This document shows positions 1-25,142 of a stretch of DNA of 38,784 nucleotides, piece by piece (the first letter of the stretch is position 1; every line of letters begins with the position of its first letter). The translations under genes and the position numbers were made by a program. Below the pieces are notes generated by a model. The model was not told the origin of the DNA. It saw only the letters and a program-made list of their open reading frames with translations, and made no database searches. This stretch comes from Candidatus Nanohalarchaeota archaeon (lineage in GTDB: Archaea > Nanohalarchaeota > Nanosalinia > Nanosalinales > JAFCCC01): the NCBI GenBank assembly GCA_017610385.1, contig JAFCCC010000008.1, positions 1 through 38,784 on the forward strand, written 5' to 3'.

Positions 1-213
1 TCAATTGGATATACATTTTTTTACTCATTTCCAACCATTAAAATTGGAGAAACAGAAGAATATTCTCATAGATCTGTATGTATGATTTCTTCAACCCAAG
101 AGAATTGTGTGGAACTTAAGATGCCTTCAATAAATTTAATTAAATTACAACCAGGTCAACATTTCTTAAAAATAAAATATATCCATCCTGGTGTTATGGA
201 AGTGACAGAATGA
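1..213 (+). CDS. C-terminal end of an unidentified, probably secreted protein (partial)
   Basis: An open frame enters from the left edge and ends at a TGA at 211-213, giving 70 residues. It has two cysteines (in VCMISS and ENCVEL) and alternating hydrophobic and polar residues that suggest a beta-rich extracellular domain. The stop overlaps the next start as ATGA, so the two genes are probably translationally coupled and belong to the operon that follows. The fragment is too short to assign a family. Confidence 0.6.
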   Translation, partial: SIGYTFFYSFPTIKIGETEEYSHRSVCMISSTQENCVELKMPSINLIKLQPGQHFLKIKYIHPGVMEVTE

Positions 214-695
214 AGGGTGTTGCTGAAACACTTAATGTAATGATTATTATCATCATTATTGGAATATTTGCTACGATTTTGTTTTTAATAAGATTTAGGG
301 GGACTGGAGAAAATATTGTTACTTTCGGAGAAGCTTCTCAAGAATTTGAGTCTAAAACACTATTAAATTCATTGTATTCTATACATTATCCTATTGTGGG
401 CGCAGATAATGAAGAACTTATGTGGGTTCTAAGATTTGGTTGCGCATATGGAAATATAGAAACAGGAGAATTTATTGTTTCTCCAACAATACCAGTTATT
501 TTTGATCCGCAATTATTTATTGAAAATTATTTTGAGCAAAAAATCGGAGAAAATTATTTCTTGGAGATTGTTTGCGGAAATAGAACACTAGACTACGGCA
601 AAAAACCACCAAATAATAAGAAAATATTATCAAATAAGCTAATGTTTCCTATTCCTGGGAGAGGTTATGGTGAGTCGTATTTGAGGCGGTGGTAG
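210..695 (+). CDS. Small membrane-anchored protein with pilin-like N-terminus
   Basis: 161 residues. The N-terminus is MKG followed by VAETLN and a very hydrophobic helix of about 20 residues containing six consecutive isoleucines; the rest is probably extracytoplasmic and includes three cysteines. Lys-Gly directly before a transmembrane helix is the pattern of archaeal class III (type IV pilin-like) signal peptides, and most genes of this operon share it. The start overlaps the preceding stop (ATGA) and the next gene begins one base after its TAG. I do not recognise the C-terminal domain. Confidence 0.7.
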   Translation: MKGVAETLNVMIIIIIIGIFATILFLIRFRGTGENIVTFGEASQEFESKTLLNSLYSIHYPIVGADNEELMWVLRFGCAYGNIETGEFIVSPTIPVIFDPQLFIENYFEQKIGENYFLEIVCGNRTLDYGKKPPNNKKILSNKLMFPIPGRGYGESYLRRW

Positions 696-696
696 A

Positions 697-2004
697 ATGA
701 GAAACTCAAAGGGATTCAGTTTGATAACTCTTGTTTTTGTTGTTGTAGTTGTGGTAATAGGAGGAATTGCGTGGTATATGAATAATTCTATTTCGGGTCA
801 GGGAATTTCTAGAGAGATTTTGGAAAATTTTAAATTACAGAAAGTGGAATTGGAAAACGAAAACTCAATATTATACTTAGAACAGGCTCTGTGGGATTCT
901 ACTGCAAATGCGTCACAAACAGTTTCAGATCTGGCAGGAAGAAATGTGACAAATGAAACAGACACTAATTTAACATATTGGCGATGCGATTTGGATGAAG
1001 TAAGTAATTCTGGAAGAGAAGTTACATACCAAATACCATCAATTGAGCGTGTTCAATTATCTTTACAAAACAAAACTATGACCTATCTTGAAAATATATT
1101 GAATCAATTACATGGAATAAGAGATGGGGTAATTTATGATGTGGGGGGTGTAAAATGTGCAGAAGTAGGATATAATACCCCCTTAGACAGCCCTTTAAAT
1201 TCTAAATATAAAACAGCGGGTATTATTAACAAAATAGATACAACTTTTGAGAGTTACAAAAGAGAGCGTGCTAATCTAACTTTCAATGACGATATAAGAT
1301 ATAACCGCTTCTGGTATATGTATACGATTATGGCTCGTTGGACTCAGGAACAGGATATGGAATCAGACATTTTAAGTGAGATGGCCAAGGTTTATGATTG
1401 GGTTGATGACGTTGTATGCACACCTAGTTGCACATGCCCTTGTCCTTATCAACCACTTTGTACTAGAATACCAATTAATTGGAGCACGCTAGTTAGACAT
1501 GCAGTAGACAAGGGTATTGAAAAGGGTGTTAATGAATTAGAGTCTGGTTCTCGTTATTTTAATGATAATAAGATTTCTTGTGGTTATGGGATTGAAATAG
1601 ATTACTATGACAATATTCCTTATATTACAAATGCAAGAATCGGGCGTTGTGGAAGCTGGGGTCAATGGTGTCTTATGTACTGCAGATTAGATTATGAATA
1701 CAATTTTGAAGGAGATATTGATATTTCTTGCACAGATCAACAATATCAATCAATTCCAAGAAAAGATTTAGAAAGACTAAACTGGAAAATTCGTTTTAAT
1801 GTTGAAGCCACAGACCCGCCAAATGAGGGACCATTCCCACCACCATGCGATAGTTTATTGTCTGGTTCATGTAAAACCATTGAGTCTCCGGATAGACTAG
1901 GTACTGATAAATTCCCAGAATGTACTGTCACAGATCCCGAATTTAAACTTTGTGATACCGGTGTAGACACCATTGGTACTTTATGGGGTGAAAATAATGC
2001 GTAA
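697..2004 (+). CDS. Pilin-like membrane-anchored protein with Cys-rich ectodomain
   Basis: 435 residues. The N-terminus MRNSKG-FSLITLV followed by a run of valines strongly resembles a type IV prepilin signal (bacterial prepilins are typically cut at G-FTLIE), although position +5 is Thr instead of Glu. The ectodomain has about 20 cysteines, several clustered (for example CTPSCTCPCP and CGSWGQWCLMYC), implying disulfides. It is far longer than a normal pilin, so it may be a minor pilin or anchored adhesin instead of a filament subunit. The last eight bases overlap the next gene. No enzymatic motif is visible. Confidence 0.7.
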   Translation: MRNSKGFSLITLVFVVVVVVIGGIAWYMNNSISGQGISREILENFKLQKVELENENSILYLEQALWDSTANASQTVSDLAGRNVTNETDTNLTYWRCDLDEVSNSGREVTYQIPSIERVQLSLQNKTMTYLENILNQLHGIRDGVIYDVGGVKCAEVGYNTPLDSPLNSKYKTAGIINKIDTTFESYKRERANLTFNDDIRYNRFWYMYTIMARWTQEQDMESDILSEMAKVYDWVDDVVCTPSCTCPCPYQPLCTRIPINWSTLVRHAVDKGIEKGVNELESGSRYFNDNKISCGYGIEIDYYDNIPYITNARIGRCGSWGQWCLMYCRLDYEYNFEGDIDISCTDQQYQSIPRKDLERLNWKIRFNVEATDPPNEGPFPPPCDSLLSGSCKTIESPDRLGTDKFPECTVTDPEFKLCDTGVDTIGTLWGENNA

Positions 2005-3571
2005 AGGAATAGCAATTCTTACTGAAATCATTTTATCTGTTGGAATTATTGCGGCAGGTGCTATTTTTTTCTTAGTGGGTTATGATTTTCTGGGACATGA
2101 AACCCAAACGGCATACAAATATACAGAATTACAATTTTTATTGGACATTGGAAATAGAATAGATACGTCATCTTCACAACTTGGAAGAACTACTGTAGAA
2201 TATCGTGTTCCTTTTGATGTTTATAGTTTAAAAGGAGAAAATAACATATTAACCTTACAAACTGCTGACAATCCCTCCCCAAGCCATACTTTATTAGAGT
2301 TCAATTTAAAAGATTTCAACATATCAGATCAAGATTATATTTGTCTTTACTTTAAAAATAAAACAGCGGTTGTTGAACCTGGAGAGTGCCCTAATTTAAA
2401 TGTTAGCGATGATTTCTGCGCAAATTTACGGTGTGTAGATGGAATTTGTACTTCAGATTACGGAGAAAACTGCTTAAGTCCAGATTGTAATTGTAGTGGA
2501 GGAATATGCCAACCACACTATAAAACAGAGTGTTTAGATTCTAAAGGGTGCGTTAAAGAAGAGTGTGTGGGTGTTTTAAACTATAGTAACACTTGTAAAT
2601 ATTCCTGGGAATGTGGAACTTTTGAAGATGATCAGATGAATTGTAAGCCTTCTAAAAATAACATATCAAATAAAGGATGTTGTCCGCCAGATGAAGTTTG
2701 GAATGGAACCCAATGTACGATTGGCTGTGTTGGAGATCCATGTGTAACGGGAGAAGAGTGTGGAACCGGTGAACAGTGTGGTACTTCTGATGATTTGGTT
2801 TGCAATCCGACAGACATTAATTTTACAGATTTTAATAAAGGTTGTTGTCCAGAAAATTTGCGTTGGAATGGAAGTACTTGTGTGGAAGCTTTGACTATTT
2901 GTAATGGTCCTCTTCCCGCAGCATTTGATTGGAGAGATAGATTAGGCAAAAATTGGTTACCACCAATTCGAGATCAAGGTCATTGTGGCTCTTGTTGGGC
3001 ATTTTCTGCTATTGGCACAATAGAAGGTGAATACCAGGTTGAATCATATAAACCAGATTCTGGAATTAATTTGGCAGAGCAAGAACTTGTTTCAAGTTGT
3101 TGTAGCTCTTGTGGTAGCTGTAGTGGGGGTTGGCCACACAAGGCGTTTAGTTATGTTAAAAGCAGTAATGTTGTAGATGAAACATGTTTTCCATACAGAG
3201 CAAGCAATATGGGATGTAATAAATGTGGTGATGCAAAAAATAAAGACTGGACCGTAAGTTCTTTCATTAGGGTAAGTGGTACACAGAATATTAAAAGAGC
3301 ATTAGCCTGTCGTGGGCCGTTATCTGTTGCATCAATGAATTGGGGGCATGCGATTGTTTTAGTTGCATATGATGATGATAGTGACATTTGTAGGGCACAC
3401 TATGGAAAAGATGGTTGTTGGGTTATAAGAAATAGTTGGGGTGTACGATCGGGAGTATTGCATGGAGGTGTGTGGCATGACAAAGGTTATGGTTATATTC
3501 CATATTCTGGTCATTCTAAGAGCGATATTGTGAATTATGTGTACTATGTAACAGATGTGAGAGAAGCATAA
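1997..3571 (+). CDS. Membrane-anchored papain-family (C1A) cysteine protease with Cys-rich stalk
   Basis: 524 residues from the ATG at 1997; an in-frame ATG at 1973 lies inside the previous gene, and 1997 places MRKG-IAILTE directly before the helix, matching the neighbours. Residues 5-27 form the anchor. Residues about 140-300 are Cys-rich, with a CNC cluster and two CCP...WNG...C motifs. From about residue 313 (FDWRD) comes a papain-like domain: oxyanion Gln327, catalytic Cys333 in CGSCWAF, His451 in WGHAIVL and Asn479 in RNSWG, so the catalytic set is complete. No typical inhibitory propeptide is apparent; the stalk takes its place. It is probably active on the cell surface. The stalk is related to that of the C25-like protease downstream. 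Confidence 0.9.
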   Translation: MRKGIAILTEIILSVGIIAAGAIFFLVGYDFLGHETQTAYKYTELQFLLDIGNRIDTSSSQLGRTTVEYRVPFDVYSLKGENNILTLQTADNPSPSHTLLEFNLKDFNISDQDYICLYFKNKTAVVEPGECPNLNVSDDFCANLRCVDGICTSDYGENCLSPDCNCSGGICQPHYKTECLDSKGCVKEECVGVLNYSNTCKYSWECGTFEDDQMNCKPSKNNISNKGCCPPDEVWNGTQCTIGCVGDPCVTGEECGTGEQCGTSDDLVCNPTDINFTDFNKGCCPENLRWNGSTCVEALTICNGPLPAAFDWRDRLGKNWLPPIRDQGHCGSCWAFSAIGTIEGEYQVESYKPDSGINLAEQELVSSCCSSCGSCSGGWPHKAFSYVKSSNVVDETCFPYRASNMGCNKCGDAKNKDWTVSSFIRVSGTQNIKRALACRGPLSVASMNWGHAIVLVAYDDDSDICRAHYGKDGCWVIRNSWGVRSGVLHGGVWHDKGYGYIPYSGHSKSDIVNYVYYVTDVREA

Positions 3572-3608
3572 TAAAAAAGAAAATATAATAATAAAGAGAT
3601 TGATAATT

Positions 3609-4535
3609 ATGAATAAAATTAGGATAATTTTGCTTGTGGGCGCATTTGTTGTTTTTAGCAGTACGGCGTTTGGATTAAATAATCCGTCACAAGTGTATTG
3701 TACTGCCATGAATTACTCATATGTTATTGAGAATATACCAGAAGGAGAAGTTGGATACTGTTATTTTAATAATGGTGATTTCTGTGATGCGTGGGATTTT
3801 TTGATTGGAACTTGTGGTATGGCACATAGTTACTGTTTAATACAAGGATATGATATTGAAACTACTACAAATATGGAGATTTGTAATTCGGAAAACGCAG
3901 AAGAACAATGCTGTGCATGTATTTTAACCAATGGAACAGCAGTGGAAGTAACAAAATTAATGGGTCTCAGCTTTGTCGAAGGAGACTGTGGGGATCTTGT
4001 TTGTGTTTTGGGGGAAACATTTGAAAACTGCCCTGTAGATTGTCCCTCAGGAGGATTAGACCTTTTTTGTGATGGTGTAAAAGACAACATATGTGATCCA
4101 GATTGTAATATTAGTGAAGATGAAGATTGCAAACCTGTTTGCGGAAATGAAAAATGTGAACAAGGAGAGACTAATAAAAACTGCCCTGTAGATTGCGCTT
4201 TAACCTCGGTGTGTGGAAATGGTGTGTGCGAATCTGATGAAAATATTACTAATTGTAATATAGATTGTGAGAAAGAAGTCAGTTGTGGAAATGGTATTTG
4301 CGATGAAAAAGAAAGTTATCAAATTTGCCCAGAAGATTGTAAATCCGGACACAAGGACTTTTTTTGTGATGCAGTAAACGATGGTCGCTGTGATCCGGAT
4401 TGCAAGAATGGAGAAGACGTAGACTGTCAAATAAAAAGAAATTCTCATTGGTGGGTATATTCGATAGTTATTCTATCAATTTTATTTAGTCTGATTTTAT
4501 TGGTTAGAAAAAGCAAGGTACGTAAAAATGCATAA
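3609..4535 (+). CDS. Secreted, C-terminally anchored protein with CGNGxCE cysteine repeats
   Basis: 308 residues from the ATG at 3609; an in-frame TTG at 3600 is less likely. There is a Sec-type signal peptide (about residues 1-22, ending STAFG), so unlike its neighbours it lacks the Lys-Gly anchor. A C-terminal helix (about 280-300) is followed by a basic tail. The middle holds at least three repeats of the form CGN-x-x-CE-x-x-E-x(5)-C-x-x-DC, plus two copies of a D-x-FC-D...CDPDC module. The acidic, Cys-paired repeats suggest metal-stabilised or disulfide-stabilised surface modules. The last eight bases overlap the C25 protease gene. Function unknown. Confidence 0.75.
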   Translation: MNKIRIILLVGAFVVFSSTAFGLNNPSQVYCTAMNYSYVIENIPEGEVGYCYFNNGDFCDAWDFLIGTCGMAHSYCLIQGYDIETTTNMEICNSENAEEQCCACILTNGTAVEVTKLMGLSFVEGDCGDLVCVLGETFENCPVDCPSGGLDLFCDGVKDNICDPDCNISEDEDCKPVCGNEKCEQGETNKNCPVDCALTSVCGNGVCESDENITNCNIDCEKEVSCGNGICDEKESYQICPEDCKSGHKDFFCDAVNDGRCDPDCKNGEDVDCQIKRNSHWWVYSIVILSILFSLILLVRKSKVRKNA

Positions 4536-6594
4536 GAAAGGGATGGTGCAGGGATTTGTAATTGCGATGGCTGCATTTGTAATTGCTGCACTAACAATTT
4601 TTTTAGTATTTAGATATTTTTCAATGACAAGATATCCTTTAGATTCAGAACAAGTTGTGCAGGGATCTGACAAAGAAGTTGCATTTCAGTTAGCAAAATT
4701 AATTGACTATTGTTGGGAAGAAAATAATTATGGTGCAGGGAATTTAGAACAAGATTGTTTTTTAGTTACAATCAATAGTGAAAAAAATCTGAGTGCTACA
4801 TCAATTAAAAGTCAGATAAGTTATCCTCAAATAAAAATTAAATCTTTAAATTTTACTGGTGGTGAAAGCGTGAAAGCCAAAATAATTTACCATCCGGAAA
4901 ATGGAACTATTGAAATCAAAGGTTTTATGGAATTATTAAATGGTATTTGTCAACCACAATATGGAGAAGATTGCTATTTCCCAGACTGCAATTGTACAGA
5001 ATTAGGAATCAGTGATATTTGCCTGCCTTCTTATACTCCTAACAAAATAACCGCAGTAGGTTGCGTTAAACCAGACTATGTACATATCTTAAACCGTGGT
5101 TCTCAATGTAAATATAATTGGGAATGCGAAGAAGATTTAACCTGCGGGCAAACTGTTCGTTTTGATGACTTTGAATTTGCGTGTTGCCCAAATGGAACTG
5201 GGTGGAATGGAAATGAATGTATAAAATTAAAAGAAATTGGAGAAGAATGTGAAGAAACAGAAGAATGCGAAATAAATCTGAATTGCAATAATGTATCTCT
5301 AAATTTTACAGAGTATTCTAAGGTGTGTTGTGTTGGTCAAAAGCACTGGAATGGTTCTGCTTGTGTCTATGTGTATGGAGAAATATGTTTTGAGAACCAA
5401 GAATGTGATTTGGGCTTAAAGTGTAATTCAAATCCAGAAAAGACTGGAAAAAACTGTTGCCCGCCAGGAGAAAAATGGAATGGTTCTGCTTGCGAATTAA
5501 AAGAAGTTGATGTGCTGGTTGTTGCATTAAAAACCAATATGAAAAAAGTTTATTCTGATGCGGATATTGAAAACTTAGAAAATAAAGTTGACGAATATAT
5601 TTCAACAATTTCAACAACAGATGATCTTGTTGGCCTTTTTGTATATTTGGATGAAGATTTAGTAAAAAATATTATTGGCTCTAAAGTTACGAACCCAGGC
5701 GACTGGAATAATATCGATGGCATTTTAGATCAATTAATTCCCAAATTGAAAGCGAAATATTTGATTATTTTGGGGGGGTATAATCGATTTGTTCAGGCAC
5801 CAATTGGCTCTTCTCAGGGTTCAGATGACCCATATGGAGATACAGATCGAGACGGTTCATATTTACCAGATGTAAGTGTAGGAAGAATTCCAGACCCAAA
5901 TAATGGGGACCTGCAAGTACTTTTAAACGGTTTAAATACAGCTATAAGCGTACATAAAGATGGAGGTTTAACATTGGACAGTCATGTAGCACCAATAATG
6001 GGTTGCGGGGGATATGACAATAGAAATTGGAACTCTGGAAAATGTTTTTGTCAAGCCATTTGGCCATCAACTTGCGTAGCATGTGGATCCTGTTGTGGGT
6101 GCATAAATTCAGCGAGTATGTCTGGAAAAGGATTTGTAATGATTTTATCACATGGTCCAGGACCCTCTTCTACAGAACTATATAAAGGGGGGTGTTTGGA
6201 TGTCAGACCAAATTTTATTACTAGTTTAAACGTGGATACGGCGTTTTGGATTTCAATGAGTTGTGGTGGAGGTCATTTGAAATTAAAAAGTCAAACTTCA
6301 GGATCAATGGCTATGACTTTTTTAAAGAAGGGGGGTGCGATTTATGTGGGTAGCACGGATTTGAATTACGGGGGCCTAGGCGGTTGCAGTGTACCTGGCG
6401 GTGATTCTTGTATTGGTTCTCTTTACGTTGAATTTATTAAAAGATTACAAGTGGGTAAAAGTGTTGGGGCTGCCTATCGTGAAGGTAAAAACTATTATTA
6501 TGGTAGATATAACTGTGGTGCAGGCAAAAGTTACCAGACCCATATAAATTGTTTGTATGGGGATCCTACCCTAAAAATTAAAAGTATGTGGTAA
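4528..6594 (+). CDS. Membrane-anchored gingipain-like (C25, caspase-fold) cysteine protease
   Basis: 688 residues. MHKKG-MVQGF precedes a helix (about 8-30). Residues about 135-325 form a Cys-rich stalk with a YGEDCYFPDCNC motif and three CC(P/V)...WNG...C repeats, related to the stalk of the papain-like protease upstream. From about residue 328 (VDVLVVAL) a C25/clan CD domain follows: a Rossmann-like strand LIILGGYN, DVSVGRIP, probable catalytic His542 in ILSHG, probable catalytic Cys579 in SMSCGGG, then GGAIYVGST and a C-terminal LYGDPTL, all typical of gingipain relatives. The His-Cys spacing of 37 is close to that of gingipains. An Ig-like C-terminal domain is absent. Likely a surface protease; specificity unknown. 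Confidence 0.88.
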   Translation: MHKKGMVQGFVIAMAAFVIAALTIFLVFRYFSMTRYPLDSEQVVQGSDKEVAFQLAKLIDYCWEENNYGAGNLEQDCFLVTINSEKNLSATSIKSQISYPQIKIKSLNFTGGESVKAKIIYHPENGTIEIKGFMELLNGICQPQYGEDCYFPDCNCTELGISDICLPSYTPNKITAVGCVKPDYVHILNRGSQCKYNWECEEDLTCGQTVRFDDFEFACCPNGTGWNGNECIKLKEIGEECEETEECEINLNCNNVSLNFTEYSKVCCVGQKHWNGSACVYVYGEICFENQECDLGLKCNSNPEKTGKNCCPPGEKWNGSACELKEVDVLVVALKTNMKKVYSDADIENLENKVDEYISTISTTDDLVGLFVYLDEDLVKNIIGSKVTNPGDWNNIDGILDQLIPKLKAKYLIILGGYNRFVQAPIGSSQGSDDPYGDTDRDGSYLPDVSVGRIPDPNNGDLQVLLNGLNTAISVHKDGGLTLDSHVAPIMGCGGYDNRNWNSGKCFCQAIWPSTCVACGSCCGCINSASMSGKGFVMILSHGPGPSSTELYKGGCLDVRPNFITSLNVDTAFWISMSCGGGHLKLKSQTSGSMAMTFLKKGGAIYVGSTDLNYGGLGGCSVPGGDSCIGSLYVEFIKRLQVGKSVGAAYREGKNYYYGRYNCGAGKSYQTHINCLYGDPTLKIKSMW

Positions 6595-6599
6595 TAAAT

Positions 6600-7202
6600 A
6601 TGAAAAAATCTAAATTTAAATTGATGAGAAAGGGCAACGTTTGGATAATTGTAGGTCTCTCTTTACTGATAATTTTAGGAATAATAACTGCTTTGTTCGT
6701 TGTTTTGGGAGACCATAAACAAGAAACGAAGATACCTACAAAATCAATTTGTGGAGATTCTATTTGTGATGAATCAGAAGGTTGCTATAACTGCTCTATA
6801 GACTGTAAATGTGCAGAAGACGAATATTGTTCTCCTGAAAAAAACAAATGTATTTTGCCTGTTTGTGGAAACGGGATTTGCGAGTCATTTGAAGGTCCTG
6901 ATTCCTGTTGTCTAGATTGTCCATGTACAATTCCTGCAGAAATTTGCAATAATGAAAGTTTAATTTGTGAAATTCCTTGTGAAATTCCGAAATTTCCACT
7001 TTCTGATGAAAATGTAAAAGAAATTGCTATTAACTATTCAGAAAGCATAGGTTTCATTGTGGAAAACACGGAAATTGTAAACACTGGAGAATATAATGGA
7101 AACGTAGTTCGAATTATTCGGGTTTCTTATCAGGGAGAAGAATGGTTTACAACATATGGAATAACTGAGGAAGGGCAAGTTATCGAACTTCCTGTGGCGT
7201 AA
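6600..7202 (+). CDS. Membrane-anchored Cys-rich protein with CGxxIC repeats
   Basis: 200 residues from the ATG at 6600, five bases after the protease stop; an in-frame GTG at 6588 overlaps that gene and is less likely. The N-terminus has a basic stretch ending in MRKG-NVW, then a helix to about residue 38. Two Cys-rich repeats follow (CGDSICDESE and CGNGICESFE, each ending in DC-x-C), the same kind of module as in the 3609 and 17312 genes. The last 70 residues look like a small globular domain with alternating beta strands (VVRIIRVSYQGEEWFTTYG), reminiscent of PepSY-type folds, but I cannot assign it. Confidence 0.7.
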   Translation: MKKSKFKLMRKGNVWIIVGLSLLIILGIITALFVVLGDHKQETKIPTKSICGDSICDESEGCYNCSIDCKCAEDEYCSPEKNKCILPVCGNGICESFEGPDSCCLDCPCTIPAEICNNESLICEIPCEIPKFPLSDENVKEIAINYSESIGFIVENTEIVNTGEYNGNVVRIIRVSYQGEEWFTTYGITEEGQVIELPVA

Positions 7203-7235
7203 TTATCAGAATATTTATACTCTTAAAAATAAAAT

Positions 7236-7699
7236 ATGGATATGGCAAAGGGCTTGGCAGTACAATTAATTGCATCTATGATTTTGGCGTTTATTGGCTA
7301 CCACACCACGGTGGAGACGCACCAATACCAAGAGGTTGCGGAGACCCAGATAAACAAGCTCAAACTCCAGTAATTATTAAAGATCCGAATGATCTTGCAC
7401 TTCGATTAGGAGGGTATATTTTAGATTGTTGGGAAAAGTATGAAGGATATGGAGAGTCCAGAGAAGTATGTGATGGTTTAATTATTGATGAATTGGTGGG
7501 TTATGTGGATGAGAAATTAATTACACAAAAGCTTATTTCACAACAACTTTGTCCAGATAAAATTCAAAATTCTGAATTAGAAGAAAGTGATGGAACTGGT
7601 TGTGGTACACTAAATCAAATAATAATGCCAATAGAAAAAATACAAGATGGAGATTTTATTACTATTACTTTCTTTAATGAAACAATTGAGGTAAAATAA
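7236..7699 (+). pseudogene. Frameshifted pilin-like membrane protein gene
   Basis: The ATG at 7236 opens MDMAKG-LAVQLIAS..., the Lys-Gly plus helix pattern of this operon, but that frame stops at 7371-7373. The coding signal continues in another frame (stop at 7697-7699), with LGGYILDCWEKYEGYG and further cysteines resembling the LIDYCWEENNYG segment of the C25 protease gene and LIDLCYN of the next gene. The downstream frame has no ATG, GTG or TTG before the TTG at 7493, inside the conserved part. Codon choice fits the first frame until about 7300 and the second from about 7300, so the shift lies inside or just after the membrane helix. It may be a true indel, a sequencing error or recoding; the helix also looks short. 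Confidence 0.6.
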
Positions 7700-7700
7700 A

Positions 7701-8135
7701 ATGAAAAGCAAAGGTTCAATGTCTTTAGAAATGATTGTTAAATGGATCATTATGTTGGTAGTAGTTTTGGTGGCCATTGGATTAATTACGGTTTTTAGTG
7801 GGAGAATTAAAGAGTCTGTTCAAAATTTATTTCATAAAAACAATGATCAATCAGTTTATGTTCGTGTAGGTCTTATTGGTACAGATCAACAATTAAGCAA
7901 AATCGCGGAATTAATAGATCTTTGTTACAATGCAAAATTAGGTCAAAGCAGGGATGAAACATGCTATATTGTCCATAACAAAAATGGCGATTTTTCAATC
8001 ACGAAAGAACAAATAAAAGAACGCCTACCAGGCGGCTTGGCAGATAAAATGATATTTAAAGATGACGAATTTGATTCAGAAACTATTGTAATTTCTTATG
8101 GGTGGGTAGATGAAACAGTTGTATTGGAACAATAA
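7701..8135 (+). CDS. Type IV pilin-like protein (Glu+5 present)
   Basis: 144 residues. MKSKG-SMSLE has the classical prepilin arrangement: Lys-Gly cleavage site, Glu at position +5 of the mature chain, then about 20 hydrophobic residues. The ectodomain contains LIDLCYNAKLGQ and a second cysteine (ETCYIV) likely to form a disulfide. Its size is right for a small pilin or minor pilin. It follows the frameshifted gene by one base. A prepilin peptidase would be needed for processing; none lies in this window. Confidence 0.72.
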   Translation: MKSKGSMSLEMIVKWIIMLVVVLVAIGLITVFSGRIKESVQNLFHKNNDQSVYVRVGLIGTDQQLSKIAELIDLCYNAKLGQSRDETCYIVHNKNGDFSITKEQIKERLPGGLADKMIFKDDEFDSETIVISYGWVDETVVLEQ

Positions 8136-8622
8136 AGGATCTATTTCTATAGAATTGATTGGCAAATGGGTTCTAGGAATTATTATTATTGCAGTTGGAA
8201 TTGGACTAATTTATGCCCTATTGAAACCAACTAATACGGATTCCATTCATAAACAAATTGCAGAAATGGTTCGTGGCAGCGAAATTCCTATTTGTCGCGC
8301 ATATGATAACTTAGAAAAGATAAACGAGATTGATTTTCAAGCCCTGTGTTTTGCGCGAGCTACAGATAAATGCAATAGTTCGGAGAATAATATAACCTTG
8401 GATTTTGTTTTAAGCAAGGATTTTTTTGAAAAGTTTCTTGTAGATTTTAATTTTGTTTCTGGAAAAGAACCATTAGTATTCTACAAAGATGCTTGTGAAA
8501 GTTTTACTGGTTATGATGGATTTATTGTACAATCTGAAAAAAATAAGATATTATTTCTAAAAGGCGAAAAAATTAAAATAGCTAATTTAAATCCTGGGGT
8601 AGGAATCTGTCCGTTACAATAA
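8110..8622 (+). CDS. Type IV pilin-like protein (Glu+5 present)
   Basis: 170 residues, overlapping the previous gene by 26 bases. The ATG at 8110 gives MKQLYWNNKG-SISIE, again Lys-Gly with Glu at +5; a TTG at 8119 is an alternative start. The N-terminal helix (about 15-35) is clearly related to that of the preceding gene (GSxSxE then KW), so the two probably arose by duplication. The ectodomain has five cysteines. Tight overlap implies coupled translation and similar expression. Confidence 0.7.
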   Translation: MKQLYWNNKGSISIELIGKWVLGIIIIAVGIGLIYALLKPTNTDSIHKQIAEMVRGSEIPICRAYDNLEKINEIDFQALCFARATDKCNSSENNITLDFVLSKDFFEKFLVDFNFVSGKEPLVFYKDACESFTGYDGFIVQSEKNKILFLKGEKIKIANLNPGVGICPLQ

Positions 8623-8654
8623 ATGTATTTATTCTAGTAAAATAAAGTTTTTTT

Positions 8655-9170
8655 ATGCAAAAAGGCATGAGTGTGGCCATGTGGATCTGGATTATCGGGG
8701 GTGTTTTAATCGCGGGTCTGTTGTTTGTAATGGTTGTAAATAATATGGGGTTTTTTACTTCCCAGAAATCCAGAGAAGCCATGTTAGATCAATTCAGGTT
8801 GAATATTGTAAATAAAGCTGACTTGATTTGTGCCTCGAGTATAGGAAGTGTAAATCCCTCTTCGGTTGAACTCAAAAATGTTCAGGCAATATATGCTGCA
8901 GAAAAACCTAGAAATGTTGATCCAAAAGCACCACTATACATAACACAAAAAAATTATTCTATTGGTAAATATCTGTGCATGTCTTTTGATAATGAAGAGT
9001 ATCGCTGTAAAGAAATGACTTGTGAGATAAATATGACGTACATTGGAACCCCATTAAAAACTTCTGATATGTATAAAATAGGAATAAGTGATGGTTCATT
9101 TGAATTTGATCTGAGTATTCAAAAAAATGAACATAGTAAGGTATTAATTTCTGCGACACATCGTCCATAA
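8655..9170 (+). CDS. Pilin-like membrane-anchored protein
   Basis: 171 residues. MQKG-MSVAM and a helix (about residues 5-30) follow the operon's pattern, without Glu+5. The ectodomain has four cysteines, including a pair in YRCKEMTC, and ends in a beta-rich segment. It is separated from the previous gene by 32 AT-rich bases ending in a T-run, so it may have some independent expression. It is the last Lys-Gly-anchored gene of the block before a new promoter at about 9180. Confidence 0.68.
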   Translation: MQKGMSVAMWIWIIGGVLIAGLLFVMVVNNMGFFTSQKSREAMLDQFRLNIVNKADLICASSIGSVNPSSVELKNVQAIYAAEKPRNVDPKAPLYITQKNYSIGKYLCMSFDNEEYRCKEMTCEINMTYIGTPLKTSDMYKIGISDGSFEFDLSIQKNEHSKVLISATHRP

Positions 9171-9208: not shown

Positions 9209-9598
9209 ATGGCCGCACCTCAAAAACCAGAATTTGAAATAGACGTAATGGAACGTTTGAATAGCGCGTCTAGAAGAATTAGACAGCTTGAAGAAAATAT
9301 TAGAAGTATAAGAGATCATTTAACCGGTCTAGAAAATGAATTCGTCAAACAGAAGGAAGATAGGAATTCTTTTAATACGAATTTTAATAAAAAAGAGGAA
9401 CAAATTAAAATAGCCATAACTAATTTAGGTGTAGAAGTTAAGAATATCAATAGACGATTAAGAAAAGTTGCAACTAATCGAGAACTTCAAGAGATTGAAA
9501 GTTACATTCAAATTTTTAATCCATTAAAGAGCAGCTTTGTAACAAAAAAAGAGGTTCAAAAAATGATAGAAAAATATCGTGGAGGAGATCTTGAGTGA
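9209..9598 (+). CDS. Cytoplasmic coiled-coil protein
   Basis: 129 residues, highly charged, with no signal peptide or membrane helix. Heptad-like patterns run from about residue 13 to 100 (for example RIRQLEENIRSIRDHLTGLE), and the C-terminus is basic. Soluble coiled-coil proteins occur next to archaeal surface-appendage genes (archaellum FlaC/D/E-type proteins), but I see no specific signature of those families. The stop overlaps the next start (GTGA), so the two products are probably co-translated and may interact. Confidence 0.65.
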   Translation: MAAPQKPEFEIDVMERLNSASRRIRQLEENIRSIRDHLTGLENEFVKQKEDRNSFNTNFNKKEEQIKIAITNLGVEVKNINRRLRKVATNRELQEIESYIQIFNPLKSSFVTKKEVQKMIEKYRGGDLE

Positions 9599-10386
9599 AA
9601 TTTAAGTTATTTGGTAGATTAAAACAAAATGCAAAAAAAGAACCTAAAATAGAAGCGAATTTAAAACCTGCTGAAGAAATACCAGTTAATGAAGTTAGAC
9701 GAATGAGTTCTCAGGGAGTTTCTCAAGGAGAGATTGTTAATCAATTAAGAAATACTGGGTATACTTATTCTCAAATAAATAAGGCGATGAATGAAGCAGT
9801 TAAAGAAACAACAAAAATGGGTGGAATTCAAAATCAAACGCCTATGCAAAGTCAGATGTCCTCAGGTATGCCACAACCGGAAATAAATACTCAATTACCG
9901 CCAAAGGCAACACCACAGGTTCAAAATAACCAATCGAATGAGCGGTCATTTGAATACCCGCAAAATATACAATATACTGGACCCTCTAAAGAAGAACTTG
10001 GATTACAAAGCCAGGATGCATTTGCTGCCGCAGCATCACAACAGCAACAATTTTTGGTTCCTGAAAATACAGAAGAATTAATAGAGGTTATGATTGCTGA
10101 AAAGATGATTGATGTTGAAGATGAATTTGAAAGATCGCATAATAAAATTTCTGATCTTGAGAAAATTATTCTAGAGTTAAGAGACACAGTAAAAGAACTT
10201 CAGATTAGAAAAGATGAGGATGAAAAAAAGTTCTTGGGAAAGGTTATTGAAATTGAAGATTTTTTAGAAGGATCTCAAAGTAGACTTGGTGGATTAGAAA
10301 AAGCTGTTCAACAAGTTTTGCCTACTTTAGTTGAAAATGTTCGTGATTTAACAGGAGTAGTTGAGGATGCAAAGAAAAAAGAGTAA
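9595..10386 (+). CDS. Cytoplasmic protein with UBA-like helical motif and coiled coil
   Basis: 263 residues from a GTG overlapping the previous stop, with a GGAGGAG Shine-Dalgarno just upstream. Residues about 35-70 (VSQGEIVNQLRNTGYTYSQI...) look like a small three-helix UBA-like bundle. A Gln/Asn/Pro-rich linker follows (about 75-150), then a charged coiled coil (about 180-260). No membrane segment. Together with the 9209 product it could be a cytoplasmic scaffold or adaptor. Function unknown; the assignment rests on composition and motif shape. Confidence 0.65.
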   Translation: MKFKLFGRLKQNAKKEPKIEANLKPAEEIPVNEVRRMSSQGVSQGEIVNQLRNTGYTYSQINKAMNEAVKETTKMGGIQNQTPMQSQMSSGMPQPEINTQLPPKATPQVQNNQSNERSFEYPQNIQYTGPSKEELGLQSQDAFAAAASQQQQFLVPENTEELIEVMIAEKMIDVEDEFERSHNKISDLEKIILELRDTVKELQIRKDEDEKKFLGKVIEIEDFLEGSQSRLGGLEKAVQQVLPTLVENVRDLTGVVEDAKKKE

Positions 10387-10400
10387 TTTCTAGTTTAATT

Positions 10401-10949
10401 TTATGGGCTATCTCCGCCACCGTTTTTAGTAACAAGCCAGATAACTAATACAATTACTCCGAGCATTATTGCTATTCCGAAAACACTTAAAAATGCTTCG
10501 GAAGAGAAAAACGAACCAAATGCCGTGCCAACACTACTAGCAGTCATTGAAATGTTAAACACCAAAAAAACAATCATTGTGATAATTAAAATAGCTAAAA
10601 TCACGAAAATAATCCATTTGGCTGTTTTTTTATCAGTACTCATTAAATCTTCTAATTTGATATTAAAGAAACCCATTAAAATTGCAATGGCCAATAAAGC
10701 GACTAAAACAACCGCAAATCTAGAAAAAAATATAGTAAAGAAATCTGCAGGAATAAACGTATAAATGCCGCCTAGAACCAGCAAAGAAACACAAAGTGAA
10801 ATTATTAAATTAACTCCTTTATTGTCTCCAAATGCCTTTACATATTCTAAAATCCCATAAACTACTGCGAAAACTAACAACATTGGCAATAAAAAGTTAT
10901 AAAAGCCGAAATTTCTCAAGTTTTCCACAAAAAATTCAAATCCTGCCAT
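10401..10949 (-). CDS. Four-helix membrane protein, paralogue of the next gene upstream
   Basis: 182 residues from the ATG at 10949; a GTG at 10964, two bases after the upstream gene's stop, is a possible alternative. About four or five hydrophobic helices span the protein. The segment FGFYNFLLPMLL...YGILEY...FGDNKG matches SGFYHVVLPIIL...YGILEM...FGDTTKG in the 10966-11553 product, so they are paralogues in tandem. Small polytopic proteins of this kind lack enzyme motifs and may form a membrane platform or channel. The gene converges on the coiled-coil gene at 10386. Confidence 0.7.
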   Translation of the reverse strand: MAGFEFFVENLRNFGFYNFLLPMLLVFAVVYGILEYVKAFGDNKGVNLIISLCVSLLVLGGIYTFIPADFFTIFFSRFAVVLVALLAIAILMGFFNIKLEDLMSTDKKTAKWIIFVILAILIITMIVFLVFNISMTASSVGTAFGSFFSSEAFLSVFGIAIMLGVIVLVIWLVTKNGGGDSP

Positions 10950-10965
10950 GTTTGTACAGCTCACT

Positions 10966-11553
10966 TCACTTTCGTGCAGCTTTCTTTGCTATTCTTTTTT
11001 GAGTACCCTCAGCACTCGTATCCAAAAATGTCCAGACGACTAAAGCAACTAGCCCTACCACTACCAATAACAATACAATTGTTTGTGCACTAATGGCCAT
11101 ATGTGGTAAGTTAAAATTTATACCGAAAATTCCTATGCCGCCAGATTGCCTAAACAGCATGAAAATAACAAATGCGCAGATTGCAAAAATCAGCCATTTT
11201 ATCCATGCTTTATCACCAAATACAGTCGTAAAATTCTCGCCTTTAATCACACCATATAAAATAAAGAGGAATAATACTCCAACCAAAATAACCGCCAAAT
11301 AACCAGACATATTGACAACAATAGTTGAGAACCAGATCAAATAACTAGTTGAATAAGTTATAAAAAGAGTTAAAATAATAGAAATTATAATATTTATTTT
11401 GTGGCCTTTTGTAGTGTCTCCAAAAATATTAATCATTTCAAGAATTCCGTATAAAATGACTACTAAAAGAATTATTGGTAAAACCACGTGATAAAAACCG
11501 CTTTGTCCTAAAATTCCTTGTTGCCCCAGCCATTGTTCGAAATTAAATGTCAT
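10966..11553 (-). CDS. Polytopic membrane protein, paralogue of the 10401 product
   Basis: 195 residues with about four or five transmembrane helices and a basic C-terminus (KRIAKKAARK) that is probably cytoplasmic. It shares the GFY-x(3)-LP...YGILE...FGD-x-x-KG signature with the downstream paralogue. It is first in its minus-strand unit, and a TATA-like element (CTTTTATAAGG on the minus strand) lies about 27-37 bases before its start. It is divergent from the 11665 membrane gene, suggesting coordinated expression of the membrane cluster. Function unknown. Confidence 0.7.
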   Translation of the reverse strand: MTFNFEQWLGQQGILGQSGFYHVVLPIILLVVILYGILEMINIFGDTTKGHKINIIISIILTLFITYSTSYLIWFSTIVVNMSGYLAVILVGVLFLFILYGVIKGENFTTVFGDKAWIKWLIFAICAFVIFMLFRQSGGIGIFGINFNLPHMAISAQTIVLLLVVVGLVALVVWTFLDTSAEGTQKRIAKKAARK

Positions 11554-17311: not shown

Positions 17312-20263
17312 ATGAAAAAATTACTTGCAGTTTTATTTGCATTGATTGCTTTCATAGGTGTTGCTAGTGCGGGAATCGTTGGCTCCTATTCTCTAAAAGT
17401 TAATGTGTATGATTATTCAACTTCTCAGAGCATTATTGCAGATTCTATTTGTGTTGATAGTAATTGTGTTTACAATAAACAAAGCTATACGTTTAATGTA
17501 AACAAAGGCGATCACAATATTTTTGTTATAGAAAATAATTACAACAGTTACAGTTCTTCACTATATATCCAATCTAATTCGTTTAAGAATGTTTATTTAC
17601 AAAGCGGTTCAGGTGGTATAACTCCTGTTGAGGGATATAGTTTAACAATTAAAATTTATGATTATGATACTAGACAGCCGATTTCTGTTGATGATATCTG
17701 TGTAGATGCGAAATGTGTTCAAAATAAGCAAATATATAGTTTTAGTGTAAGCAAAGGCACACGAATGATTGCGGTTGGAGATGAAGACTATCAAAGTTAT
17801 AGTAGTTCCATATATATTCAATCTAATTCGTTTAAGAATGTTTATCTAAAACGAAATAGTTGCCCACTTCCGCCAGCCCCGGTTTGTGGAAATGGAATTT
17901 GTGAATCAGGGGAGACACAATATAATTGTCCTCAAGATTGCGGCACACCCCAAAACGAATGTCGTGATTCTGATGGAGGTTTAGACTATTACAAAAAAGG
18001 AACCGTGATAATTAGTTCGGGTAGTTGTGGCTCTTGTGAAAATAGTTATACGGATTATTGCACTAGTTCTGTTGTTTTGAAAGAGTATTATTGTTCTGGA
18101 AATAGTATGAGTTCTACAAGTTACACTTGCTCGTATGGTTGTGAGGCGGGTGCATGTAAATTACACATTGAGCCGTCTTGTGATCCACAATATTTAGATA
18201 ATTATCAATGTAGTAGAAATTGGGTACAAAGAGAATATCAGAATACAGATTGTTCTACTGTATGGAAGAATTGGGAACTTTGTGAGCATGGTTGTGAGAA
18301 TGGTGTGTGCAAATCTGAGCCACGTTGTAATGTAGACGTCTATGATTTAACTCTAAGCGATTCTGAAGTTACTGTAGGAGAAAACGTGGTTGTAAGAGCC
18401 ACTATTAAGAATACTGGTGAAAGTACTGAAAAAATCAGAGTAAGAATGTATTATAGAACGGAACGTGAAGATGTTCAGGAGTATACTCTATCACCCGATC
18501 AATCTAGAGAAATTTCTTTTGAATTAAATAACATAGTATATGCAGGCTATGTTAAAGTTGAGGCAGAGTCTTGCAATAATGTCAAAAATGCTGTAACTAA
18601 AAGAATTAGAATTGAACAGGAATCTATTGCTACTGGAGATTTAAAAATTACTGTTATGAAGGGGGTAGGTTGTGGTACAGATTGCTCTTGCGGTTCATGT
18701 GCTTCTTGTAGTTATTCTTGTGGAACTTGTGATCGAGAGTTGCAAGGTGCAAAAGTATTAATTGAACGAGAAAGTGGTGGTTATACTACCTACAAATATA
18801 CTAATTCAGCTGGAGAAGCAAGATTTTATAATCTTCCAGAAGGAACTTATGAAATTACAGTAAGCAAAAGTGGATATAATAGTATAAGAACTAATGCAGA
18901 CGTTGAAGAAAATGAAATAACATCTAAAACAATTTCATTGGCCTGCTGTGGTGATGGAACATGTTCTTTCCATGATTTAGAACTTAGAAGAATTATTTTA
19001 CCTCAAGAGATTCATGCAGGAGATTCAATTTATATTGAGAGTAGAGTGAAAAATCTTGGTGGCTGTACTGAGAAGAACATAAAAGTAAGTGTGACTGCAT
19101 TTGGACAAACTAAAACTTCGGATGTTTTTTCATTAGGGAAAAATAATGAAAAAAGTGTTTTATTACAATTTAATATTCCTTCAAATTATTATGGCCATTA
19201 TGCAGTAATATCTCGGGTTTGGAATTCAAATGATGAAGATGTTTTGGAAACAGATGCGTTTGTTTCAGAAGTTCGTGCTATTTTAAAATTAGATCCTTCG
19301 ACGGTTCATGTTAATGAATCGGTTCATGTTTATGGATACATTAAAGGAAAGAGCTCAGCTAAATTATATTTGGGAAATAGATACATTAGAAAAATTTATA
19401 CAGATAGTAGGGGATATTATTCAACATATATAACACCAAAAGTTCCTGGCAAACTCTCTGTAAGTTTAAAAGATAGTTCGTTTACAGTAAGCAAATATCT
19501 GACGGTTATTGCCGATTTATGGATTAAAAATATTGAATTAAAGGAGATGGTTGCTGTTGGAGAAAGCTTTAGTGTTTGTTCGGTTATTGAAACTACAAAA
19601 ACAGGTTATGTAACAGTAGGCTTGTATGTGGATGGAATTAAATACACACAAACAAGACCCTATATTATAGGTTCTAAAAATGTTTGTATAACTACAAAAA
19701 TTTTGGAAAAAGGGCATAAAGAAATTCAAATTGTTGCAGCTCAAGATGATAAAAGAGATGAAATTAGTGGTAAAATAGAAGTCATTAAACCAAACACAGA
19801 AGTTTTGGTTGTACCAAAGAATCTAATGATTGAACAGGGGAAAGATGGTTTATTAAAAATTGTTGTAACAAACTCGGACCCAATTGAAAAAGAATATGTT
19901 GTTTCAATTAATTACATGGATCAAGTAAGTATAGACATTCCTGTTGATTCAGCAAGATTAACTCAGTACGAATCTAAAACATTTTATGTAAATTTAAATC
20001 CACATAAAAAAGGAGAATTTAACAGTATTGTAACTGTTAAAGCAGATGACGTAATTTTAAAAGAAATTCCAATTAAGTTATATACTTCACAACAGTATCT
20101 TTCTTGGAATGAGAAAGTCAGTATGTTTTTTCAAAGAGCGGGGATACGTGCTGGTTTGGTAACTGGAATAATTACATTGGCATTGATTGTTATTGTAATT
20201 ATTATTTCCATATTGTATGTAGGATTTTTTAGGGTAAAACCAATGGAACCACATTACAAATAG
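17312..20263 (+). CDS. Large multidomain surface protein with C-terminal membrane anchor
   Basis: 983 residues. Signal peptide 1-20 (ending VASA). Residues about 13-178 contain two tandem 83-residue repeats (VYDYST.. / IYDYDT.., each ending YIQSNSFKNVYL). A CGNGICESGE module lies at about 192-212, a Cys-rich segment at 215-337, a CARDB-like adhesion domain near 338-440 (DVYDLTLSDSEVTVGENV), a carboxypeptidase-regulatory-like beta domain at about 442-545 interrupted by a Cys cluster (CGTDCSCGSCASCSYSC), then further Ig-like domains. A helix at about 947-970 and a short basic tail anchor it. Probably an S-layer-like or adhesive protein; enzymatic motifs are absent. Confidence 0.8.
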   Translation: MKKLLAVLFALIAFIGVASAGIVGSYSLKVNVYDYSTSQSIIADSICVDSNCVYNKQSYTFNVNKGDHNIFVIENNYNSYSSSLYIQSNSFKNVYLQSGSGGITPVEGYSLTIKIYDYDTRQPISVDDICVDAKCVQNKQIYSFSVSKGTRMIAVGDEDYQSYSSSIYIQSNSFKNVYLKRNSCPLPPAPVCGNGICESGETQYNCPQDCGTPQNECRDSDGGLDYYKKGTVIISSGSCGSCENSYTDYCTSSVVLKEYYCSGNSMSSTSYTCSYGCEAGACKLHIEPSCDPQYLDNYQCSRNWVQREYQNTDCSTVWKNWELCEHGCENGVCKSEPRCNVDVYDLTLSDSEVTVGENVVVRATIKNTGESTEKIRVRMYYRTEREDVQEYTLSPDQSREISFELNNIVYAGYVKVEAESCNNVKNAVTKRIRIEQESIATGDLKITVMKGVGCGTDCSCGSCASCSYSCGTCDRELQGAKVLIERESGGYTTYKYTNSAGEARFYNLPEGTYEITVSKSGYNSIRTNADVEENEITSKTISLACCGDGTCSFHDLELRRIILPQEIHAGDSIYIESRVKNLGGCTEKNIKVSVTAFGQTKTSDVFSLGKNNEKSVLLQFNIPSNYYGHYAVISRVWNSNDEDVLETDAFVSEVRAILKLDPSTVHVNESVHVYGYIKGKSSAKLYLGNRYIRKIYTDSRGYYSTYITPKVPGKLSVSLKDSSFTVSKYLTVIADLWIKNIELKEMVAVGESFSVCSVIETTKTGYVTVGLYVDGIKYTQTRPYIIGSKNVCITTKILEKGHKEIQIVAAQDDKRDEISGKIEVIKPNTEVLVVPKNLMIEQGKDGLLKIVVTNSDPIEKEYVVSINYMDQVSIDIPVDSARLTQYESKTFYVNLNPHKKGEFNSIVTVKADDVILKEIPIKLYTSQQYLSWNEKVSMFFQRAGIRAGLVTGIITLALIVIVIIISILYVGFFRVKPMEPHYK
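17348..17845 (+). repeat. Tandem duplication of an 83-codon module
   Basis: Two consecutive 249-base units encode related modules. A 27-base stretch is identical between 17570-17596 and 17819-17845, while the rest has diverged. The junction falls exactly between modules, so the duplication kept the reading frame. Confidence 0.75.
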
Positions 20264-23972: not shown

Positions 23973-25142
23973 TTATCTTTGTTTTTCAACAAGCATAACT
24001 TCTAGGTCACTTATTTCCATTGAGCCGTCGGTAGTTAAAACAATTTCGTTTAACCCACGAGAAATGTGTTGTTTATCAAAGAAAACTCTGGAAAGTCCAG
24101 AGCTAGGGAATAAATTAAAGGTGTGATTTGTTGTTTCGTTTTGCAATCTAATTTCTAAAGAGCCTCTCAAATAAACCTTGTTATCAAATTGAATTAGTCC
24201 TTGGTAGTTGTCTTTTGAAATCTTTTTATATTGCGCGTTAGTTACTTGAAAAACTCGTTTTACAGATGTTTGATTTGGAACTCCAAAATAAAATACTTTA
24301 AGCAAGCTATTTTCAAGATCATAAATAGAATTTTCGCCAGTTGTAATTTCTAATATATTTTCTCCTAATTTTAAGTTGGTTTCATTAGCACTAAAAAGTA
24401 TGGTGTAGGGGGTAGCGCGTAAATATGGTTTTTGGTCATAGATAATTTGATTATTAATTCTAATTGTTATGGGCTCTTCTCTTTGTGATTTCGTAACAAA
24501 AAAAGACAATTCTGCACGATCAAATCCATTTAATTCATAGTCGTGGATTTGAAAGGTCGTAGTAAATTTGTGGTAACCATAATCATTTAGGGTAAATTTA
24601 ATATTTTTTAATTTATAAATTGTTGGGGCCCAGAACCTGAGGCCAGATCCTTGAGCTTTTATTACTAATTTGTTTGCTCCGGCGCGGATATTTTCTAATT
24701 TTAAACTAGGAGAAACAGAATCTAAAACTTTTATGTTAAGTTCCTTTTTACCATTTAATTCAACAATTAAATTACCATATAAATTTGTTTCTGAAACATC
24801 AAAATTCAAGTAAGCTGCTTGGGGGTTGTTTGCATTAAATTCATAAGCCCATTCATGGTGTCCTATAAATCCGTTTTTAATACCATAAGACTCAACATTA
24901 GCTAATGTTTGATTTGCTTTCGTGGCTCCTATAGAAAAACTCCCTAAATACGTATCAGTAAACGTGTTTTCCGTATCCCCTAAAACACCCAAATTTGTAC
25001 TCAAAAACACATTATTGGCTACATAATTTTGAGAATCAGAGGAATTTTGTCCTGCCCAAAAGCCACCAATAATAAAAATGAGTAGCATTGCAGCAATAAT
25101 TAAATAAAATGCCATGTTTACTGGGGCTGCGCCTTTATTCAT
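23973..25142 (-). CDS. Lys-Gly-anchored extracytoplasmic protein with beta-sandwich-like domains
   Basis: 389 residues. MNKG-AAPVNMAFYL precedes a helix (about residues 8-28), the same arrangement as in the pilin-like operon at the window's start, but this gene stands alone. The ectodomain is rich in beta strands with two or three similar segments (LIVELNGKKELNIKVLD; EEPITIRINNQIIYDQ; GSLEIRLQNETTNHTF), like carbohydrate-binding or BACON-like sandwich domains. It has no cysteines. Divergent from pelota. Function unknown. Confidence 0.68.
   Translation of the reverse strand: MNKGAAPVNMAFYLIIAAMLLIFIIGGFWAGQNSSDSQNYVANNVFLSTNLGVLGDTENTFTDTYLGSFSIGATKANQTLANVESYGIKNGFIGHHEWAYEFNANNPQAAYLNFDVSETNLYGNLIVELNGKKELNIKVLDSVSPSLKLENIRAGANKLVIKAQGSGLRFWAPTIYKLKNIKFTLNDYGYHKFTTTFQIHDYELNGFDRAELSFFVTKSQREEPITIRINNQIIYDQKPYLRATPYTILFSANETNLKLGENILEITTGENSIYDLENSLLKVFYFGVPNQTSVKRVFQVTNAQYKKISKDNYQGLIQFDNKVYLRGSLEIRLQNETTNHTFNLFPSSGLSRVFFDKQHISRGLNEIVLTTDGSMEISDLEVMLVEKQR

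Follow-up and report, generated by a model that had tools for sequence, protein, structure and literature searches.

Modular pilins and class III-anchored enzymes have both been described outside the lineage considered here. In the modular type IV pilins PilB and PilC of Streptococcus sanguinis, a class III module carries a grafted functional domain, VWA included, and bacterial modular pilins with peptidase modules of families S74 and M26 have been reported (PMC8179133). In archaea, class III signals were noted on extracellular proteases (PMC2910488, citing Szabo 2007), and the Sulfolobus bindosome is an earlier example of functional domains carried by class III helices and assembled by an ATPase/TadC pair (PMC2910488). 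Among Nanohaloarchaeota, metagenome-assembled genomes of one order contain pilus gene clusters without annotated pilins (PMC9563170), and the SPEARE proteins of this phylum were proposed to attack the host S-layer (PMC6642349). Here we analysed a 38,784-base stretch (the window; GenBank JAFCCC010000008.1) of the genome of Candidatus Nanohalarchaeota archaeon GCA_017610385.1, the first quarter of which encodes a run of pilin-like proteins, two of them with protease domains. We consider it likely that this locus specifies a type IV filament of Nanohaloarchaeota whose modular minor pilins display interchangeable proteases.

The locus resembles each of several described systems in part. As in PilB and PilC, class III modules are combined with grafted functional domains, including VWA; the differences are its presence in a DPANN archaeon, the C1A, C25 and zincin modules, the Cys-rich stalks, the presence of two protease pilins plus a VWA pilin within a single operon, and the apparent exchange of a protease cassette together with the neighbouring secreted gene. 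With archaeal class III surface proteins and the bindosome it shares functional extracellular class III proteins, for which proteases are mentioned, as well as the ATPase and TadC genes (PMC2910488). Bindosome subunits are sugar-binding, whereas here proteases and VWA stand among many small pilins, and no class III sugar-binding subunit was found in the window cluster (one solute-binding protein is encoded on another contig, C4, beside an ATP-binding cassette (ABC) transporter). The VWA protein with its N-terminal helix and the TadA/TadC-type genes recall TadG and the TadE and TadF pseudopilins of the Tad pilus (PMC4858521). In contrast to these, the VWA protein of this locus has no match to a Tad family. 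We know of no protease pilins in Tad loci. The SPEARE proteins belong to the same phylum and likewise combine surface proteases with adhesion domains, but each is one giant protein that contains serine protease, LamG and restriction domains, and no class III signal is reported for them (PMC6642349); none of these domains was detected in the window proteins scanned. Gingipains share the C25 catalytic domain with its His/Cys dyad, whereas the C25 protein described here has a pilin-type N-terminal anchor and no type IX secretion C-terminal domain detectable by Pfam. The original prediction regarded this composition as without precedent, which overstates the case, as modular pilins with peptidases (PMC8179133) and class III proteases in archaea (PMC2910488) are already known in principle. 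What appears new is that minor pilins of archaea carry C1A, C25 and zincin modules, that a single operon combines two proteases with a VWA pilin, and that the protease is exchanged as a cassette. A literature search on DPANN archaea, pilins and cysteine proteases found no paper.

Genes are named here by their first base in the window. The same-strand genes between 210 and 9170 are spaced by -26 to +38 bases, and the run extends to 10386 via 9209-9598 and 9595-10386. Eight products (of 210, 697, 1997, 4528, 6600, 7701, 8110 and 8655) begin with a short basic leader that ends in Lys-Gly, followed by a hydrophobic helix, and a ninth gene of this kind is broken (about 7233-7699). The open reading frames and starts thus match the original prediction, which had described eight such products and a frameshifted one, genes that abut or overlap, a Glu at +5 in 7701 and 8110 (and only these two have it), and two members with protease catalytic domains. 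Together with the VWA protein encoded upstream, the locus therefore has several class III subunits, as expected of a type IV filament.

The first protease pilin (1997-3571, + strand, MRKG/IAILTEIILSVGI; slashes mark the predicted cleavage site) is composed of a class III helix, a head of about 115 residues, a Cys-rich stalk and a papain-family C1A domain (residues 306-517). Its C-terminal 210 residues match PF00112 (E=3.5e-32) and the catalytic residues of C1A are all present (Q327, C333, H451 and N479); an I29 propeptide gave no Pfam match. The second (4528-6594, + strand, MHKKG/MVQGFVIAM) has a class III helix, a pilin head, a Cys-rich stalk and a C-terminal gingipain-family domain (PF01364, C25; E=1.4e-11, 44.7 bits against a cut-off of 23), which is divergent because the model matches in two stretches, and in which motifs identify a His/Cys dyad at H542 (SHG) and C579 (SMSCGGG). 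A sequence search of the PDB with this protein returned only receptor matches at weak E-values, judged spurious. The two stalks are related (42% identity), and among the 28 genomes of the phylum compared in our surveys, C1 and C25 domains were found solely here. HMM comparison showed that the head of the C25 pilin is homologous to the plain pilins of the 7701 family (hhalign 96.5%, E=1e-9); its match to the 7233 family was weaker (78.5%, E=1.7e-5). The N-terminal module is thus like stand-alone pilins, which also occur as bare versions in the relative NHA22, and the grafted domains (C1A, C25, VWA and, in relatives, a reprolysin-like zincin) are not specific to pili.

The meaning of the Lys-Gly leader was assessed over the whole genome, with genes called on all 18 contigs joined. 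Lys or Arg followed by Gly precedes the N-terminal helix in 35 genes, and the same residues followed by Ala in 7. Under a strict rule (Lys/Arg-Gly directly before the N-terminal helix), six of the nine called genes of the cluster qualify, 7701 and 8110 being missed solely through a Lys inside the helix. The rule also selects 25 of the 122 other proteins with one or two transmembrane segments, many of which are encoded in other clusters with ATPase and TadC genes, and 2 of the 43 polytopic proteins; these two matches fall at alternative starts inside the gene, which leaves no true case. Pfam models Class_IIIsignal and Pilin_N match elsewhere in the genome, which also encodes a prepilin peptidase (A24; C8:50239-50586, E=6.9e-10). 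Given this enrichment and the ratio of 35 to 7 genes, Lys-Gly does not occur before the first helix of ordinary membrane proteins at the rate seen in the cluster. The class III enrichment, the assembly genes and the homology between the C25 head and a plain pilin together support the pilin-type anchoring or assembly and the protease display that had been suggested from the sequence.

The window is one entire contig (C2), and the operon is therefore cut at base 1. Contig C4 of the same genome ends in exactly the 64 bases with which the window starts, and the reading frame runs on; open reading frame 1-213 (+ strand) is therefore the end, namely the C-terminal 70 residues, of an 883-residue class III protein (MFRKG/QLSTYLKPV) whose remainder lies on C4:7833-10335. 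This protein carries a VWA domain (E=1.4e-20) with the metal-site motif DISGS and is an ortholog of an 836-residue VWA protein of SG9. C4 itself starts within a repetitive Cys-rich protein, the other end of which lies at the edge of contig C8, and an in-frame overlap makes the C8-C4 join probable. The order given by the overlaps is a divergent ATPase with TadC1, TadC2 and a pilin (KKG/QKELTMI) on C8, the VWA pilin on C4, and then the window. The ATPase (C8:4447-10458, 2003 residues) and the TadC genes (C8:10461-12521 and C8:2275-4398), with the ATPase and the second TadC divergent, thus supply an ATPase and a TadC/T2SSF platform linked to the pilins through the C4/window overlap and, more weakly, through C8/C4. 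The ATPase at C8:4447 is interrupted by intein sequence (intein splicing and LAGLIDADG matches). Contig C28 of NHA22 shows the same arrangement, with ATPase/TadC1 facing TadC2 and the KGQ pilin, and its ATPase is intein-free and 58-63% identical; an ortholog of TadC2 (44%) heads the zincin cluster on NHA22 contig C31. With a prepilin peptidase, ATPases and TadC in the genome, upstream by contig overlap and in the same arrangement in NHA22, the assembly genes, for which a search ahead of position 1 had been suggested, very probably belong to the locus.

Orthologous clusters with conserved gene order are present in 5 of the 28 genomes, as shown by a survey of the kind that the original prediction had called for. 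In SG9, NHA22 and NHA23, the gene in the papain slot has the same pilin start and Cys-rich stalk followed by a zincin domain instead, with motifs HETGHSTGLYH, HEIGHEYGLND and HEKGHNFGLRH, respectively, which conform to the metzincin-like M12 pattern HExxHxxGxx(H/D). The Pfam match of this zincin is just under the cut-off in SG9 and weaker in NHA22. A second NHA22 cluster, on contig C12, has bare pilins in both protease slots (147 residues in the papain slot and 142 residues in the other). VWA-type relatives are retained in SG9 and J07AB43; the pilin locus of the latter is split into two places and its members are truncated or internally stopped, which suggests decay.

Comparison of the sibling genomes NHA22 and NHA23 showed 92% DNA identity across the pilin part and stalk. 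Identity then collapses over about 1.2-1.3 kb comprising the protease domain (27% identical in amino acids) and the N-terminal ~140 residues encoded by the next gene, which have no detectable similarity; in the second, Cys-rich half of the same gene it is back at 95%. The edges of the replaced block are sharp (L065:6217-7487 against L070:2573-3778), and as both breakpoints lie in Cys-rich coding sequence with both frames open, misassembly is argued against. The protease and its neighbour gene appear to have been replaced together, as judged from this one genome pair, and their products may be partners. In the window, the positional counterpart of the co-exchanged gene is 3609 (3609-4535, + strand), encoding a secreted type I membrane protein of 308 residues with a Sec-type signal instead of a Lys-Gly leader (it is therefore outside class III), a DUF333 domain (E=2.7e-13), the repeated Cys motif CGNGxCExxE..NCPxDC and a C-terminal transmembrane segment. 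Its Cys region resembles the genes at the same position in SG9, NHA22 and NHA23, and its N-terminal domain is again unrelated. No literature on DUF333 as a protease partner was found.

The remaining members of the run are as follows. Gene 210 (210-695, + strand) encodes a pilin-like class III protein of 161 residues (MKG/VAETLNVMIII) with same-position orthologs in SG9 (E=3.5e-20), NHA22 and NHA23. It is followed by a large class III protein of 435 residues with 16 Cys (697-2004, + strand, MRNSKG/FSLITLVF), which has a weak N_methyl match in Pfam (E=0.067) and orthologs of 425 residues in SG9 (E=4e-46) and 826 residues in NHA22, besides fragments in NHA22 and NHA23. The bitopic Cys-rich protein of 6600 (6600-7202, + strand, 200 residues) has Lys-Gly before its helix, but the motif is missing from its NHA22 relative (KTNIYV), which makes its assignment as a pilin doubtful. 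In the broken small class III pilin gene (7233-7699, + strand), the helix is encoded in one frame and the head in another; compared with four intact orthologs, which have 175-190 residues, about 80 bases are lost internally and the frame changes. Two small class III pilins with Glu+5 follow: 7701 (7701-8135, + strand, MKSKG/SMSLEMIVKW), which matches Flp1_like under the cut-off (E=0.0019) and whose orthologs have merely MG or MA as leader, and 8110 (8110-8622, + strand, NNKG/SISIELIGKW), with orthologs in all clusters. The best conserved pilin of the cluster is 8655 (8655-9170, + strand, MQKG/MSVAMWIWIIGG), with 7 copies in 5 of the 28 genomes; its structural model, of moderate confidence (mean predicted local distance difference test (pLDDT) score 66.7), has a helix at residues 7-60 (54 residues) followed by beta strands as in pilins. 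Matches to 8655 in Nanohaloarchaea SG9, Candidatus Nanosalina J07AB43 and isolates NHA22 and NHA23 place the source genome (788 kb, 32% G+C, 18 contigs) with the Nanohaloarchaeota, and the earlier surmise of a reduced archaeon is supported. Outside the phylum, matches in named genomes, in Lentzea and Fibrobacter, spanned 31-35 residues and were judged to be chance. The run ends with two cytoplasmic coiled-coil proteins (9209-9598 and 9595-10386, + strand), which occupy the same position in NHA22 and NHA23 (E=7e-22 and E=2e-50, respectively).

We infer cleavage, assembly, tip location, substrate and the role of 3609 as follows. The locus would be the operon for the pilins of a type IV filament, either a pilus or a short pseudopilus, that is specific to some Nanohaloarchaeota. 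The helix of each product would insert in the membrane, the prepilin peptidase would cut after Lys-Gly, and the dedicated ATPase and TadC platform proteins would assemble the subunits. The small pilins 7701, 8110, 8655 and, when intact, 7233 would build or initiate the filament, and the three long modular pilins (VWA, papain and C25), as minor subunits, would hold globular domains at or near its tip or base, both proteases on Cys-rich stalks presumably stabilised by disulfides. Binding to a surface would fall to the VWA subunit, and the proteases would cut adjacent protein, which may belong to the envelope of a host or partner or be extracellular and imported in the form of peptides. The head that bears the protease would be an exchangeable cassette, for which the Sec-secreted product of the next gene may be a specific partner. 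Pilus-type structures thus probably hold interchangeable proteases at the cell surface. Their function could be attack on a partner envelope, as proposed for SPEARE, or feeding on protein, between which sequence alone does not separate; digestion of host or prey is one possibility among these. A further and tentative idea, by analogy with polymorphic toxins, is that an episymbiotic lineage displays proteases on the tips of its pili and exchanges the protease, together with a cognate, separately secreted partner (an inhibitor, chaperone or co-receptor), as a cassette, tracking the envelope of its host or prey.

Several points weigh against the filament proposal. N-terminal processing, the filament and proteolytic activity are predictions from sequence. 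Glu+5 is found in only two subunits, and the broken 7233 pilin might reflect a decaying system or an assembly error. C8 and C4 are joined through an in-frame overlap of 11 bases that lies in a repetitive gene, and SG9, which has the pilin cluster, lacks a close TadC2. The model of the C25 protein has a pLDDT of 37, so the fold is not confirmed, and the predicted fold of 8655 gave no significant Foldseek match in the PDB.

The main rival, which we regard as unlikely, is a class III-anchored surface array that forms no filament, in the manner of the Sulfolobus bindosome, with proteases and VWA in the membrane or S-layer feeding peptides to transporters. The bindosome precedent itself (PMC2910488) and the ABC transporter on C4, whose solute-binding protein (MTKKG) is encoded between the Cys-rich gene and the VWA pilin, speak for such an array, but the large number of small pilins, the Glu+5 and a head modelled as beta-rich fit it poorly, and the transporter is not part of the orthologous clusters of SG9 and NHA22. 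Still less probable is that the proteases act on their own system or on sibling subunits, in maturation, turnover or filament release, instead of on foreign protein. A role in processing or degrading pilins was suggested for surface peptidases of the transglutaminase family that are linked to archaeal pili (PMC4858521); here, however, one slot holds unrelated families (C1A in this genome and zincins in relatives) or the bare pilin of NHA22 C12, and it changes faster than the pilins, which variable outside targets would fit better than a conserved internal one. Finally, we rejected as very improbable the notion that these are ordinary membrane proteins with a chance Lys-Gly and no link to pili, since it gains only from the non-conserved Lys-Gly of 6600 and is contradicted by the genome-wide comparison (no true case among polytopic proteins, and far fewer Lys/Arg-Ala than Lys/Arg-Gly genes) and by the conserved synteny with ATPase and TadC genes.

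Further features of the window and genome were recorded. The two coiled-coil proteins are followed by two divergent multi-transmembrane proteins (9209-11553), an order that is kept beside the pilin cluster of NHA22 and NHA23; no relatives of the membrane protein 11665 were found. A 983-residue secreted protein with CARDB/PEGA-type domains (17312-20263) contains the motif CGNGICESGET..NCPQDC, which resembles those in 3609 and 6600. A lone class III protein of 389 residues (23973-25142, - strand, MNKG/AAPVNMAFYL) is encoded outside the cluster and has no Pfam match. An NCBIfam scan gave no useful match. Beside the pilin locus, the solute-binding protein of the ABC transporter (C4:2511-5878) starts with MTKKG and a helix and recalls Sulfolobus bindosome proteins. 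C8 carries a second large class III cluster (C8:16286-27164), including a 1018-residue protein and one with PKD domains, adjoined by its own ATPase and TadC; in the set at C8:29141-32788, one scanned protein has intein-type matches and is most likely the 1215-residue ATPase. The other class III clusters of the genome encode VWA, PKD and beta-helix domains, with no protease match among the members scanned (the 1018-residue protein, C8:19292, is not among them). The predicted proteome has a median isoelectric point of 8.84, unlike that of a salt-in halophile, although the order of the source genome includes salt-adapted nanohaloarchaea.

These results bear on the means by which DPANN cells breach their partners or feed on them. 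The locus names pilins, assembly genes and three enzyme types mounted on pilins, and it extends modular pilins with peptidase modules to archaea, where the module is exchanged between sibling species. It thereby makes the pilus as a display for interchangeable proteases directly testable.

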